This document shows, in pieces, positions 23,160 to 34,457 of a stretch of DNA of 64,000 nt (positions are counted from its first letter, which is position 1; the number at the start of each line of letters is the position of its first letter). This stretch comes from Desulfolithobacter dissulfuricans (GTDB lineage Bacteria > Desulfobacterota > Desulfobulbia > Desulfobulbales > Desulfobulbaceae). The translations under genes were made by a program, and so were the position numbers. The stretch spans positions 558,001-622,000 of the forward strand of contig NZ_AP024233.1 of NCBI RefSeq assembly GCF_025998535.1, given 5' to 3'. The notes under the pieces were generated by a model that made no database searches, had not been told where the DNA came from, and saw only the letters and a program-made list of their open reading frames with translations.

Positions 23160-24239
23160 ATGATCAGCAGGGATGAACTGTACGATCTCGTTATCAGCGG
23201 GCTGCCGGTCGCCCTGTTTGTGGTCGATGGTGATTTTGCAATTATCGAGTTCAACGTGGCGGCGGAAAAACTGACCGGCTGGAAACGTGAGGAAGTCCTG
23301 GGCCGGCCCTGTTTCGAGATCCTGGGTTCGAGTCTCTGTCGGTCCAGCTGTCCCCTGCGGGAAAGCGAGAAAACCGGGAAACCCTGTCTGGGCCGGGAAG
23401 CGGTACTCCATACCCGAAACGGCAAGAGAATGCCGATATTTTTTTCCAGCTCGGCCATGCTCGATGATCAGGGACGGATGAAGGCGGGTATCGAGGTGTT
23501 TCGGGATGCGACCGAGATAAAAAAGCTCGAAGCCCAGAAAAAGAACCTCATCTCACTCTTTACCCATGACCTCAAGGCCCCGGTGGCCATTGTCGGTGGC
23601 TTTGTCGATCGCCTGCTGCAGGAAAAGGCCGGGCCGCTGACCGACAAGCAGGGTGAGTATCTGCGGGCCATCCGCAAGGAGATATCCCGCCTGGAAAACT
23701 ATATCCATTCCTTTCTGGACATCAGCCGCATTGAGGCCGGCCAGGTCGAGCTGCAGCTCGAGGAGCAGCCCATCGGTCCGCTGCTTACGGAGATCGTCCA
23801 GGGGTTCCGGGTGCCGGCTGCCGATAAAAAAATCCATATCTCTCTGGATATACAGGATAACCTGCCGCCCGTAAAGGTGGATTCCCTCCAGTTTACCCGG
23901 GTCATTTCCAACCTGCTCGATAACGCCATCAAGTACTCGGCCCCGGGCAAGGAGGTCCGGGTCAGCGCCCGGGAAGAGGGCGAAGACCTGGTCATCGAGA
24001 TTCAGGACCAGGGCCCGGGTATCGCCCCGGATCAGCAGGAGCATATCTTCGACGCCTTCTACCGCATCCCGGGAACTCGGAAAAAGGCCGGCGGCAGTGG
24101 CCTTGGCCTGGCCGCGGTCCGGGCCATCATGGAGGCCCATGGCGGCCGGGCCTGGGTGGAGAGCAAGGAGGGTGAGGGAAGCCGCTTCAAGGTAGCGGTG
24201 CCCAAACAGGCCCCGCCCTGTGTTCAGTCTTCCAGGTAA
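23160..24239 (+). CDS. PAS-domain sensor histidine kinase (no membrane helix)
   Basis: A 359-residue soluble kinase. Residues ~5-115 form a PAS domain (GLPVALFVVDGDFAIIEFNVAAEKLTGWKREEVLGRPCFEILG) with an inserted Cys cluster CRSSCPLRESEKTGKPC that could bind a cofactor or sense redox. The phosphorylated residue is His 136 in LISLFTHDLKAPVAIVGG. The ATPase core has NLLDNAIKYS (N box), DQGPGIAPDQQ (G1), and GSGLGLAAVRAIMEAHGG (G2). No response regulator is adjacent. It ends 16 bases inside the convergent glpD gene, so the two 3' ends overlap. Confidence 0.9.
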   Translation: MISRDELYDLVISGLPVALFVVDGDFAIIEFNVAAEKLTGWKREEVLGRPCFEILGSSLCRSSCPLRESEKTGKPCLGREAVLHTRNGKRMPIFFSSSAMLDDQGRMKAGIEVFRDATEIKKLEAQKKNLISLFTHDLKAPVAIVGGFVDRLLQEKAGPLTDKQGEYLRAIRKEISRLENYIHSFLDISRIEAGQVELQLEEQPIGPLLTEIVQGFRVPAADKKIHISLDIQDNLPPVKVDSLQFTRVISNLLDNAIKYSAPGKEVRVSAREEGEDLVIEIQDQGPGIAPDQQEHIFDAFYRIPGTRKKAGGSGLGLAAVRAIMEAHGGRAWVESKEGEGSRFKVAVPKQAPPCVQSSR

Positions 24240-25801
24240 TAGCCCCGGGCAAGGTCGGTAAACGTTTCCACCTGCTCTTTTTGCCAGTTTGCATCCCGTT
24301 CCAGTTCCATGGCCAGGATGCGGGCCACCTCCGGCGCCATGTCGATGGCGGCCCTGGCATCAAGGAACAGGGCCCGTTGCCGCCTTGCCAGGATATCTTC
24401 CACTGTCCGGGCCATTTCATAGCGGGCCGACCAAGTGACCTCGATGGCGGTGTAGGGTAGCCGGGCATGGAGTTTCCGGCCCAGTTCCGGGTGTTCCGAG
24501 ACAATGTCACGCATATAGTCGGCGTCCGAGCCGTAGTAGTAGAGTGGGTCGTGGTAATCCACATTGGACAGCCATCCGTGGATGGGCATGTTCTCGGTCA
24601 GGCATTTCCTGCTTTCCAGGCCGCCGACCATGGCGGCCTTGTCCACGGTGTCCTGGGCCATCTTGCGGTAGGTGGTCCACTTGCCGCCGGTGATTGTTAC
24701 CAGGCCGGAGATGGAGACCCGCAGGTGGTGGTTGCGGGAGATCTCCTTTGTGGCCGTGGCGTCGCTGCCCTCCCTGGGAGCGGCCAGGGGACGCAGCCCG
24801 GCGAAGATGGAGAGGATATCGCACCGCTGCGGCTCCCGGGTCAGGTATTTCTTGGCCGTGGACAGGATAAAATCGACTTCTTCTTCCAGGGCCCGCGGTT
24901 CCAGGGAGCACTCCTCCAGAGGCGTATCGGTGGTGCCGACCACCACCCGTTCGTGCCACGGGACGGCAAAGAGGACCCGGCCGTCCGAAGTTTTCGGGAT
25001 CATGATCGCCGAATCCCCCCTGAGAAATTCCTTGTCCAGGATGATATGGACTCCCTGGCTGGGGCGGACAAGGCGCGGCGCCCCGGGGTCGTCCATGTGC
25101 ATGATCTCATCGACAAACACCCCGGTGGCATTGACCACGCTGCGGCCTTGCAGCCGGTAGGTGTCGCCGTTCTCCTGGTCCACGGCCTCCACTCCGCAGA
25201 CAAGACCATCATCGTTTTTCAACAGCCCGGTAACTCGCATGTAGTTGACCACTACCCCGCCATGTTCGGCACAGGTCTGGGCGATGTTGATGGCGAGGCG
25301 CGAGTCGTCGAACTGGCCGTCGTAATAGATGACCCCACCGCGCAGCCCCTCGGTCTTCAGGTTGGGGATGGCACGCAGGACCTCCTCGCGCGACAGGGAC
25401 TGGGAGGGGCCCAGGCCCAGCTTGCCGGCCATCATGTCATAGACCTTCATGCCCACGGTGTAGAAGGGACCGTCCCACCAGTCGTAGTTGGGGATGATGA
25501 ACGACTGGTTCTTGACCAGGTGGGGAGCGTTCCGGCGCATGAGTCCCCGCTCGTGAAGGGCCTCGAGTACCAGGGAGATGTCGCCCTGGGCCAGGTAGCG
25601 GACCCCGCCGTGGACCAGCTTGGTGGATCGGCTCGAGGTTCCCTTGGTGAAGTCGGATTGCTCCAGCAGCAGGGTGCGGTACCCTCTCGAGGCGGCGTCC
25701 AGGGCCGTGCCGAGACCGGTGGCCCCGCCGCCGATGACGATGATGTCCCAGGGGGTGTCGCCCTGTTCGTGGATGGTTTTCAGCATGCGTTCGCGTTTCA
25801 T
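24224..25801 (-). CDS. glpD: glycerol-3-phosphate dehydrogenase (FAD, respiratory)
   Basis: Oxidises glycerol-3-phosphate to dihydroxyacetone phosphate, passing electrons to the quinone pool from the inner face of the membrane. The 525-residue sequence has the N-terminal FAD fold DIIVIGGGATGLGTALDAASRGYRTLLLEQSDFTKGTSSRSTKLVHGGVRYL, which is a classic GlpD block, and VINATGVFVDEIMHMD. The C-terminal accessory domain ends ARGYYLED. Its ATG overlaps the stop of the diesterase gene (ATGA), the last link of the transporter operon. The G3P it consumes would come from that diesterase. Confidence 0.95.
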   Translation of the reverse strand: MKRERMLKTIHEQGDTPWDIIVIGGGATGLGTALDAASRGYRTLLLEQSDFTKGTSSRSTKLVHGGVRYLAQGDISLVLEALHERGLMRRNAPHLVKNQSFIIPNYDWWDGPFYTVGMKVYDMMAGKLGLGPSQSLSREEVLRAIPNLKTEGLRGGVIYYDGQFDDSRLAINIAQTCAEHGGVVVNYMRVTGLLKNDDGLVCGVEAVDQENGDTYRLQGRSVVNATGVFVDEIMHMDDPGAPRLVRPSQGVHIILDKEFLRGDSAIMIPKTSDGRVLFAVPWHERVVVGTTDTPLEECSLEPRALEEEVDFILSTAKKYLTREPQRCDILSIFAGLRPLAAPREGSDATATKEISRNHHLRVSISGLVTITGGKWTTYRKMAQDTVDKAAMVGGLESRKCLTENMPIHGWLSNVDYHDPLYYYGSDADYMRDIVSEHPELGRKLHARLPYTAIEVTWSARYEMARTVEDILARRQRALFLDARAAIDMAPEVARILAMELERDANWQKEQVETFTDLARGYYLED

Positions 25802-33692: not shown

Positions 33693-34457
33693 TCAGGAGG
33701 TTATCTCTACGTGCACTTCATTTTCAAGGCAGATTTTTTGAAGTGGTTCCGGCAGGTCACTGTCGGTGACCAGGGTGTTGATCTGGGAGATGTGGGCGAT
33801 GCGCACCGGGGCGGAACGGGTCAGCTTCATGGAGTCGGCCACCAGGATGACGTGCCGGGCGTTCTTGATAATGGCCTGGGCCACCTTGACCTCCCGGAAG
33901 TCGTAATCGAGCAGGGAGCCGTCTTCATCGATGGCCGAGACCCCGATGACCGCGTAATCAACCTTGAACTGGTTGATGAAGTCCACCGCGGCGACCCCGA
34001 CAATACCGCCGTCCGAGCGGCGCACCAGGCCGCTGGCCACGATCAGCTCAATGCCCAGGGACTGGCGCAGAATGTTGACCACGTTGATATTGTTGGTGAT
34101 CACCAGGAGGCCGTGATGGTCACGGAGCGATTTGGCCACCTCTTCGGTGGTGGTTCCCAGGTTGATGAACAGGGAGCAGTTGTCGGGAATGAGCGAGGCG
34201 GCCCAGCGGCCGATGGCCTTCTTTTCCTCCCTGGCCAGGAGTCGTCGTTCTTCGTAGCCCAGGTTCTCGATACCGGAAGAGATCACGGCCCCGCCATGGG
34301 TGCGGACCAGGAGCTGGCGGTCGCAGAGGAAGTTCAGATCCTTGCGGATGGTCTGGGGAGACACCTTGAAGTGGGTGGCCAGTTCATCGACCAGGACCTC
34401 GCCCCGTTCCCGTGCTATGGCAAGAATTTCATTCTGTCGCGTTTTGAGTAGGCTCAT
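33693..34457 (-). CDS. DeoR/GlpR-family transcriptional regulator
   Basis: A 254-residue repressor-type protein. The N-terminal winged helix-turn-helix is MSLLKTRQNEILAIARERGEVLVDELATHFKVSPQTIRKDLNFLCDRQLLVRTHGGAV, the DeoR signature. The C-terminal phosphosugar-sensor domain shows FINLGTTTEEVAKSL, LLVITNNINVVNIL, VGVAAVDFINQFKVDYAVIGVSAIDEDGSLLDYDFREVKVAQAIIKNARHVILVADSMK. This is close to the GlpR branch, whose inducer is glycerol-3-phosphate. It is on the same strand and just upstream of the lyase and transporter operon, so it is the likely regulator of the whole set. Confidence 0.87.
   Translation of the reverse strand: MSLLKTRQNEILAIARERGEVLVDELATHFKVSPQTIRKDLNFLCDRQLLVRTHGGAVISSGIENLGYEERRLLAREEKKAIGRWAASLIPDNCSLFINLGTTTEEVAKSLRDHHGLLVITNNINVVNILRQSLGIELIVASGLVRRSDGGIVGVAAVDFINQFKVDYAVIGVSAIDEDGSLLDYDFREVKVAQAIIKNARHVILVADSMKLTRSAPVRIAHISQINTLVTDSDLPEPLQKICLENEVHVEITS

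Follow-up and report, generated by a model that had tools for sequence, protein, structure and literature searches.

A putative glycerophosphodiester operon with a fused ethanolamine ammonia-lyase gene in Desulfolithobacter dissulfuricans

What would a transporter of the polyamine-importer family do between genes for the breakdown of glycerophosphodiesters and a gene for the cleavage of ethanolamine? The question is raised by a locus of Desulfolithobacter dissulfuricans lying in the 64,000-nucleotide stretch that we analysed (the window: contig NZ_AP024233.1, positions 558,001 to 622,000; the genome is a single contig of 3.6 Mb). An inspection of the letters alone, hereafter the sequence-only reading, had recognised there on one strand a GlpR/DeoR-type regulator, a EutB-EutC fusion (EutBC), a PotDABC-type ATP-binding cassette (ABC) importer, a cytosolic glycerophosphodiesterase (GDPD) and GlpD, and open reading frames (ORFs) and Pfam matches confirmed the whole set. 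In our opinion, the locus is probably a glycerophosphodiester operon that has acquired a fused, B12-dependent ethanolamine ammonia-lyase, with glycerophosphoethanolamine as the likely main substrate. Families, gene order, kept active-site residues and recurrent gene association are read from the sequence, and from these we infer ligand, reaction order, regulation and expression.

The association between the importer and GDPD supports this proposal. To follow it, 297 sampled genomes of another order (that of genome G362) were searched, and a PotD ortholog (E up to 1e-80) was found in 61 of them; all 61 loci were fetched, some of them cut by contig ends. Since long antisense ORFs displaced some genes when ORFs were called in high-GC loci, the neighbour counts were taken from tblastn, whose distances run between alignment ends and not gene ends. 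A GDPD lay on the same strand, at most 300 bp behind PotC, in 31 of the 61 loci, in the order PotD-PotA-PotB-PotC-GDPD and, in 22 cases, at 5–10 bp between alignment ends; the adjacency was seen in 8 of 17 genera (hand count). GDPD was further off or inverted in two loci and absent from the fetched stretch in 28. Moreover, a GDPD of at least 57% identity was found in seven relatives from the window's family or order, and GlpD adjoins it in five (L217, L219, L221, L222 and L223, the last being genome G027, discussed below); of the remaining two, L218 is without a called GlpD, and L220 ends at that point. The recurrence of both the GDPD-GlpD pair and PotDABC-GDPD in other genomes allowed us to exclude chance ORF content.

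Ethanolamine enzymes also meet this importer more than once. In three of the 61 loci (L307, L341 and L344, of genomes G727, G669 and G687) separate EutB and EutC genes stand directly before PotD, and all three run on into PotD-PotA-PotB-PotC-GDPD (Pfam check for L307 only). GlpD and DeoR were not found by tblastn in these fetched stretches. The three loci share one genus and therefore count as one event; their EutB forms a distinct group (93–94% identity to that of L307, next best 72%) and, together with the split genes and the other order, this suggests an assembly probably independent of that in the window. By a rough estimate, about 0.02 cases of EutB within 3 kb and on the proper side would be expected by chance among the 29 genomes having both proteins. 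In that order EutB (E up to 1e-60) was found in 56 of the 297 genomes, namely in 29 of the 61 PotD-positive vs 27 of the 236 PotD-negative ones; counted by genus the figures are 11/17 vs 7/38 (p=0.001, kinship uncorrected). Outside these orders, 398 plasmid records gave any match, and among the 60 matches listed eleven have a PotD of at least 48% identity, followed by a drop to 36%, which we take as the edge of the PotD clade; eight of the eleven loci were opened. On plasmid pMaD4 of Marinovum algicola (L236), genes for N-formylglutamate amidohydrolase, a tripartite ATP-independent periplasmic (TRAP) importer, glutamine synthetase, and aldehyde and alcohol dehydrogenases are directly followed by PotDABC. 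We read this set, by annotations and gene order, as the gamma-glutamyl ethanolamine set of Phaeobacter, which was assigned to ethanolamine on the grounds of proteomics and of the binding of ethanolamine by EtoX (part of the text of PMC10132767). On two Sulfitobacter plasmids (L232 and L363) PotDABC comes directly after UgpBAEC. With GDPD, Ugp and several ethanolamine enzymes as neighbours, the common denominator would be a glycerophosphodiester of ethanolamine.

A different explanation is that the core performs general salvage of glycerophosphodiesters and glycerol-3-phosphate under GlpR, whether the headgroup is phosphocholine, phosphoglycerol or another, and that EutBC, unrelated to it, owes its place between glpR and potD to chance. 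The nearest relative, locus L208 in genome G027 of the same family, fits this well: it consists of UgpA/UgpC-like ABC genes, GlpK (glycerol kinase), DeoR, PotDABC and GDPD, after which the contig ends, with identities to the window of 84% for DeoR, 88% for PotD, 88% for PotA, 92% for PotB, 91% for PotC and 70% for GDPD, and without EutB or EutC beside the core (on another G027 contig GDPD adjoins GlpD, the latter at 85%). The DNA alignment of the two loci ends at the DeoR end (33703) and resumes before PotD (30593), the DeoR-PotD interval being about 130 bp in L208 vs 3.1 kb, the place of EutBC, in the window; judged from this alignment, the fusion is a late addition here, or was lost in the relative. 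Because L208 and 28 of the 31 PotDABC-GDPD loci have no EutB/EutC beside them, the core may serve any glycerophosphodiester. Fusion lyases elsewhere also keep other gene company: GDPD, GlpD or DeoR were found near none of the 104 other fetched fusion loci (tblastn, E up to 1e-10), which are L037–L140, with L041–L050 repeating contigs of ten in L061–L140, and of which 67 are at least 15 kb long. In the window itself, about 455 bp separate EutBC from DeoR, and 404 bp separate it from PotD; close spacing, from which the sequence-only reading had deduced one transcript, thus supports it only from PotA to glpD, and EutBC may be a separate unit. Further points weigh, like these, against the operon that we propose: 30 of the 61 loci, including all 11 of genus g292, have no directly downstream GDPD; tblastn revealed no GDPD in seven plasmid stretches (L232–L236, L240 and L241), and no ethanolamine gene set was seen in L233, L234 and L235 (Ruegeria TM1040, Tritonibacter scottomollicae and Shinella); Rfam gave no match at E up to 1 in 22000–37000, hence no cobalamin riboswitch there; EutA, the reactivase usual in eut systems, is matched in the own genome only over 42 positions, under the cut-off; and potB, as sequenced, is broken by a frameshift located at a G-run near 27667. 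Nevertheless, three genomes of another order have split EutB and EutC in the corresponding position ahead of PotD, and this, with the ethanolamine gene set preceding the same importer in Marinovum, makes a fortuitous neighbourhood of EutBC rather unlikely.

The sequence-only reading had suggested a search for the same gene order in relatives, which returned PotDABC-GDPD and GDPD-GlpD, and did not return the fusion together with GDPD, GlpD or DeoR; EutBC was consequently dropped as anchor for a conserved gene order. It had also named as contrary to it that relatives carry the lyase without the diesterase. Taken literally this is the case, GDPD being found in 0/104 fetched loci, from which no more follows than that the lyase serves as a module in a variety of settings.

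The substrate of the importer can be approached through its binding protein. All family names in the locus are backed by Pfam, and no curated cut-off of NCBIfam was reached among the matches listed: the PotD equivalog model gave 133 bits vs a cut-off of 582, the ATPase matched PhnT2 best (352 bits), closely followed by two PotA-type models (345 and 344 bits), PotB was the best model for the first permease, and PotI (126 bits) and PotC (100 bits) for the second, all below their cut-offs. No UgpB model was among the nine NCBIfam matches of the binding protein. A pairwise alignment was made to chain E of 8y5h, which we take to be E. coli PotD and whose numbering is used here. Glu36, Asp168, Glu171 and Asp257, with Trp34, Trp229 and Trp255, are presumably the polyamine ligands of that protein; in the window Glu36, Asp168 and Glu171 are replaced by Gly, Lys and Thr, respectively, and the three Trp and Asp257 are kept. 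Among 76 PotD orthologs, the place of Glu36 is Gly in 74, Asp in one and unaligned in one, that of Asp168 is Lys or Arg in all 76, and clade-specific basic residues are found at R162 (76/76), K/R164 (76/76) and R165 (75/76), while W258 and D260 are invariant (76/76). A compound carrying both a phosphate and a single amine would fit a pocket in which acids have given way to bases and one acid is left between aromatics. These replacements, the PotD score far below the cut-off and the GDPD behind PotC in half of the surveyed loci are hard to reconcile with the possibility that PotDABC imports polyamines or free ethanolamine, and that GDPD and GlpD recycle glycerol-3-phosphate from the cell's own lipids. 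The models that match best are indeed of the Pot type, apart from the ATPase, for which PhnT2 comes first and PotA-type models follow closely, and part of the polyamine site, Asp257 and the Trp residues, is retained; even so, we consider this possibility quite improbable. The name GpxB was considered for the importer and discarded, GpxB being a member of the PhnD-type family (part of the text of PMC12718374).

In the fusion lyase, EutB and EutC share one reading frame, exceed their Pfam cut-offs (25 and 25.8, respectively), align to solved EutB and EutC chains and score 549 bits vs a cut-off of 554 with the NCBIfam EutB model, just under it, and 78 vs 230, well under it, with the EutC model. 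Arg160, Gln162, Asn193, Glu287 and Asp362 of E. coli EutB, which we assume to be substrate residues, all recur unchanged in the fusion when it is aligned with 3abo chain A. Since these five residues are kept and EutB and EutC are of the ordinary kind in the other order's loci, a lyase acting on choline or another amino alcohol, with glycerophosphocholine or another diester as substrate, is very improbable, even though Pelobacter carbinolicus has two such fusions and its authors suggest that ethanolamine and choline lyases may be distinct (part of the text of PMC3543383).

The fusion of the window is 52–58% identical to ten other fusions in the alignment. Matches occur in 3 of 95 close genomes (the own genome excluded), none above 39% identity, and, across the phylum, in 35 of 394 sampled genomes (E up to 1e-20); a scan of named genomes gave 469 relatives, the best 80 of which include, per record titles, Desulfobacterota, Bacteroidota, rhizobia, Riflebacteria and Myxococcota, and rhizobial megaplasmids carry the fusion too. 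In 102 of the 104 fusion loci at least 85% of the fusion is covered in one piece. Its recurrent neighbours are a SBP_bac_6 protein, FecCD/Peripla_BP_2/ATPase genes, which in our reading form a corrinoid-type importer, two proteins without Pfam match and an aldehyde:ferredoxin oxidoreductase (AOR). Two protein families of about 270 aa flank the fusion in 28 and 27 of 105 clustered loci (window and repeats included; e.g. L085 7789–13195, no Pfam match there). GC and GC3 of EutBC are like those of the neighbouring genes, so that composition gives no sign of foreign origin. The fusion looks like a portable module, and it is already known, since it was described in 2012 in Pelobacter carbinolicus, whose two fusions have AOR and corrinoid transport genes near, with unknown and multitransmembrane proteins at the flanking places; that genome is said to have no eutA (all from part of the text of PMC3543383).

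The coordinates of the locus are collected in Table 1. EutBC more likely starts at the GTG at 33237, behind a GGAGG, in an ORF open from 33381. GDPD exceeds by far the Pfam cut-off of 23.6 bits, its best structural matches are solved GDPDs, and it keeps, by eye, the His-Arg, Glu-x-Asp, His and Glu-x-Lys positions, which we take to be the functional residues; no signal peptide was seen by eye. GlpD is above the cut-offs of DAO and DAO_C, and below those of the GlpD models (287 vs 360 and 263 vs 352 bits); likewise, the GlpR-type model PRK10906 remains below its cut-off (252 vs 331 bits), yet it is the best among the matches listed for the regulator. The tight spacing from the ATPase to glpD described by the sequence-only reading was found for PotA-PotB (6 bases), PotC-GDPD (1 base) and GDPD/GlpD (ATGA overlap); the ATGA overlap of PotB and PotC can be read solely in the frame that follows the potB break.

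Table 1. Features of the locus, from the regulator to GlpD (positions in the window).
Feature	Position	Strand	Basis or remark
GlpR/DeoR-family regulator, 254 aa	33693..34457	-	Pfam DeoRC 170 bits, HTH_DeoR 61 bits
EutB-EutC fused ethanolamine ammonia-lyase	30985..33237	-	Pfam EutB 425 bits, EutC 106 bits
25-bp exact tandem repeat, two copies	30701..30750		between EutBC and PotD
PotD-like periplasmic binding protein	29522..30580	-	Pfam SBP_bac_8 98 bits
PotA-like ABC ATPase with TOBE domain	28362..29435	-	Pfam ABC_tran 129 bits, TOBE_2 50 bits
PotB-like permease, frame broken near 27667	27499..28355	-	Pfam BPD_transp_1 on first part
PotC/PotI-like permease	26648..27502	-	Pfam BPD_transp_1 41 bits
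Cytosolic GDPD, UgpQ-like, TTG start	25798..26646	-	Pfam GDPD (PF03009) 135 bits
GlpD-like FAD glycerol-3-phosphate dehydrogenase	24224..25801	-	Pfam DAO 192 bits, DAO_C 72 bits

The potB gene is intact in L208, and we take the break in the window to be probably an assembly error; homopolymer errors elsewhere in the assembly are possible. A frame-broken look was also noticed in PBP-like (18768–20126), mutL-like (20319–22218) and hisD-like (35321–36696) ORFs, names recognised by eye, the family search having been run for potB only. Runs of five G lie near the breaks of all four, although such runs are common anyway. The 25-bp repeat does not occur elsewhere in the window with up to 3 mismatches. 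Promoter-like and terminator-like sites are at about shuffle level (4 vs a shuffle mean of 2.4, and 12 vs 8.6, respectively), and no tRNA was found in 15000–45000. On one side of the locus (22321–23124) lies a gene for a metallo-beta-lactamase-fold protein, closest to AiiA-type lactonases (74 bits vs a cut-off of 375), and on the other, upstream of DeoR (34504–35175), a 223-aa ORF that matched nothing in Pfam or NCBIfam at E up to 0.001.

In the mechanism that we propose, PotD would bind glycerophosphoethanolamine in the periplasm, PotABC would import it and GDPD would cut it to sn-glycerol-3-phosphate and ethanolamine; GlpD would then oxidise glycerol-3-phosphate to dihydroxyacetone phosphate, and EutBC would split ethanolamine to ammonia and acetaldehyde. 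An enzyme from outside the locus, perhaps either of two AORs, would oxidise the acetaldehyde, and glycerol-3-phosphate would release the GlpR-like repressor. Contrary to the sequence-only reading, the locus is not a self-contained one: no acetaldehyde enzyme is encoded within it, the genome has no EutA over the cut-off, and its two AFOR_C (AOR) matches are both outside the locus. One of the AOR matches, G000:C1:931213-932283 (L229), carries one internal stop codon. Glycerol kinase is also encoded elsewhere in the genome. The pathway itself, as put forward in the sequence-only reading, gains from the PotDABC-GDPD survey, the two other ethanolamine enzyme sets joined to the importer and the loss of most acidic ligands in PotD, and is weakened by EutBC being a late, or lost, addition.

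The importer occurs in further settings. In the order of genome G222, PotD was found in 3 of 24 genomes (L212, L214 and L297), each time in a row of Fe-alcohol dehydrogenase, AOR-like, GDPD, class I amidotransferase-like, PotD, PotA, PotB and PotC genes (the AOR and amidotransferase names rest, in L212, on NCBIfam matches below cut-off); this looks like another diester-plus-amine pathway without EutBC, and we count it in favour of our proposal. No GDPD was found in the other PotD loci from the phylum and from relatives (L209, L213, L215 and L216), and the upstream genes of other PotDABC loci that were searched for families (symporters, major facilitator superfamily transporters, a protease, a pyridoxal phosphate enzyme, a methyltransferase etc.) showed no shared theme. 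In L286 (6444–7877) a glutamine synthetase gene (Pfam 448 bits) stands directly before PotD; it is 32% identical to that of Marinovum and may be an ordinary glnA. The two Sulfitobacter plasmids have a Na/Pi cotransporter gene near the UgpBAEC-PotDABC row, and a RelE/ParE-type toxin gene with a small partner gene between ugpB and ugpA. In Phaeobacter sp. MED193, MED193_11419/11424 (PotA/PotD) were induced by lack of phosphate in the wild type and not in a phoB mutant, and the locus tag of a GlpR, MED193_11439, is close to theirs (PMC10132767, Tables 1 and 2 and part of the text); MED193_11424 is a lead only, as a possible member of the PotD clade of the window.

Beyond the single locus, we see an even chance that this 'PotDABC' clade, annotated as spermidine/putrescine importer and present in several orders of the phylum and in roseobacters, would be dedicated to the import of glycerophosphoethanolamine or of glycerophosphodiesters close to it, that fused-lyase, split-lyase, gamma-glutamyl and AOR-linked modules would have joined it repeatedly and independently, and that it would thus be a second ABC route, beside Ugp, for the recycling of membrane headgroups. 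Glycerophosphoethanolamine is phosphatidylethanolamine, a major bacterial lipid, without its fatty acids; if the proposal is true, the locus would import and split a membrane breakdown product for carbon and nitrogen, linking the recycling of phospholipid headgroups with ethanolamine breakdown, and a transporter clade now labelled polyamine importer would have a concrete predicted function, which could be checked with one binding protein.

A literature search, mostly not at full-text depth, found no published locus with exactly this gene set, and the systems closest to it each share a part. PotABCD and PotFGHI belong to the same sequence family and likewise comprise a substrate-binding protein, an ATPase and two permeases, whereas the clade of the window has lost three of four acidic ligands, gained Arg/Lys and has a recurrent GDPD neighbour. 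In E. coli, UgpBAEC-UgpQ couples an ABC importer to a cytosolic GDPD yielding glycerol-3-phosphate; the window pairs the same two functions, with GDPD one base after PotC, but its binding protein is PotD-like and not UgpB-like, and the locus also includes GlpD, a GlpR-type regulator and EutBC. The loci of G727, G669 and G687 have the orthologous importer, GDPD and ethanolamine lyase, and differ in that EutB and EutC are separate genes. As in the Pelobacter carbinolicus fusions, both lyase domains form one chain and no EutA was found; those fusions, however, sit with cobalamin genes, a substrate-binding protein and AOR (part of the text of PMC3543383), and that of the window inside a GDPD-GlpD-PotDABC locus. 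Finally, the eto operon of Phaeobacter sp. MED193 also serves the catabolism of a membrane headgroup, by gamma-glutamylation and with a TRAP importer for free ethanolamine after extracellular cleavage (part of the text of PMC10132767), and in Marinovum (L236) what seems to be this gene set stands before the orthologous PotDABC.

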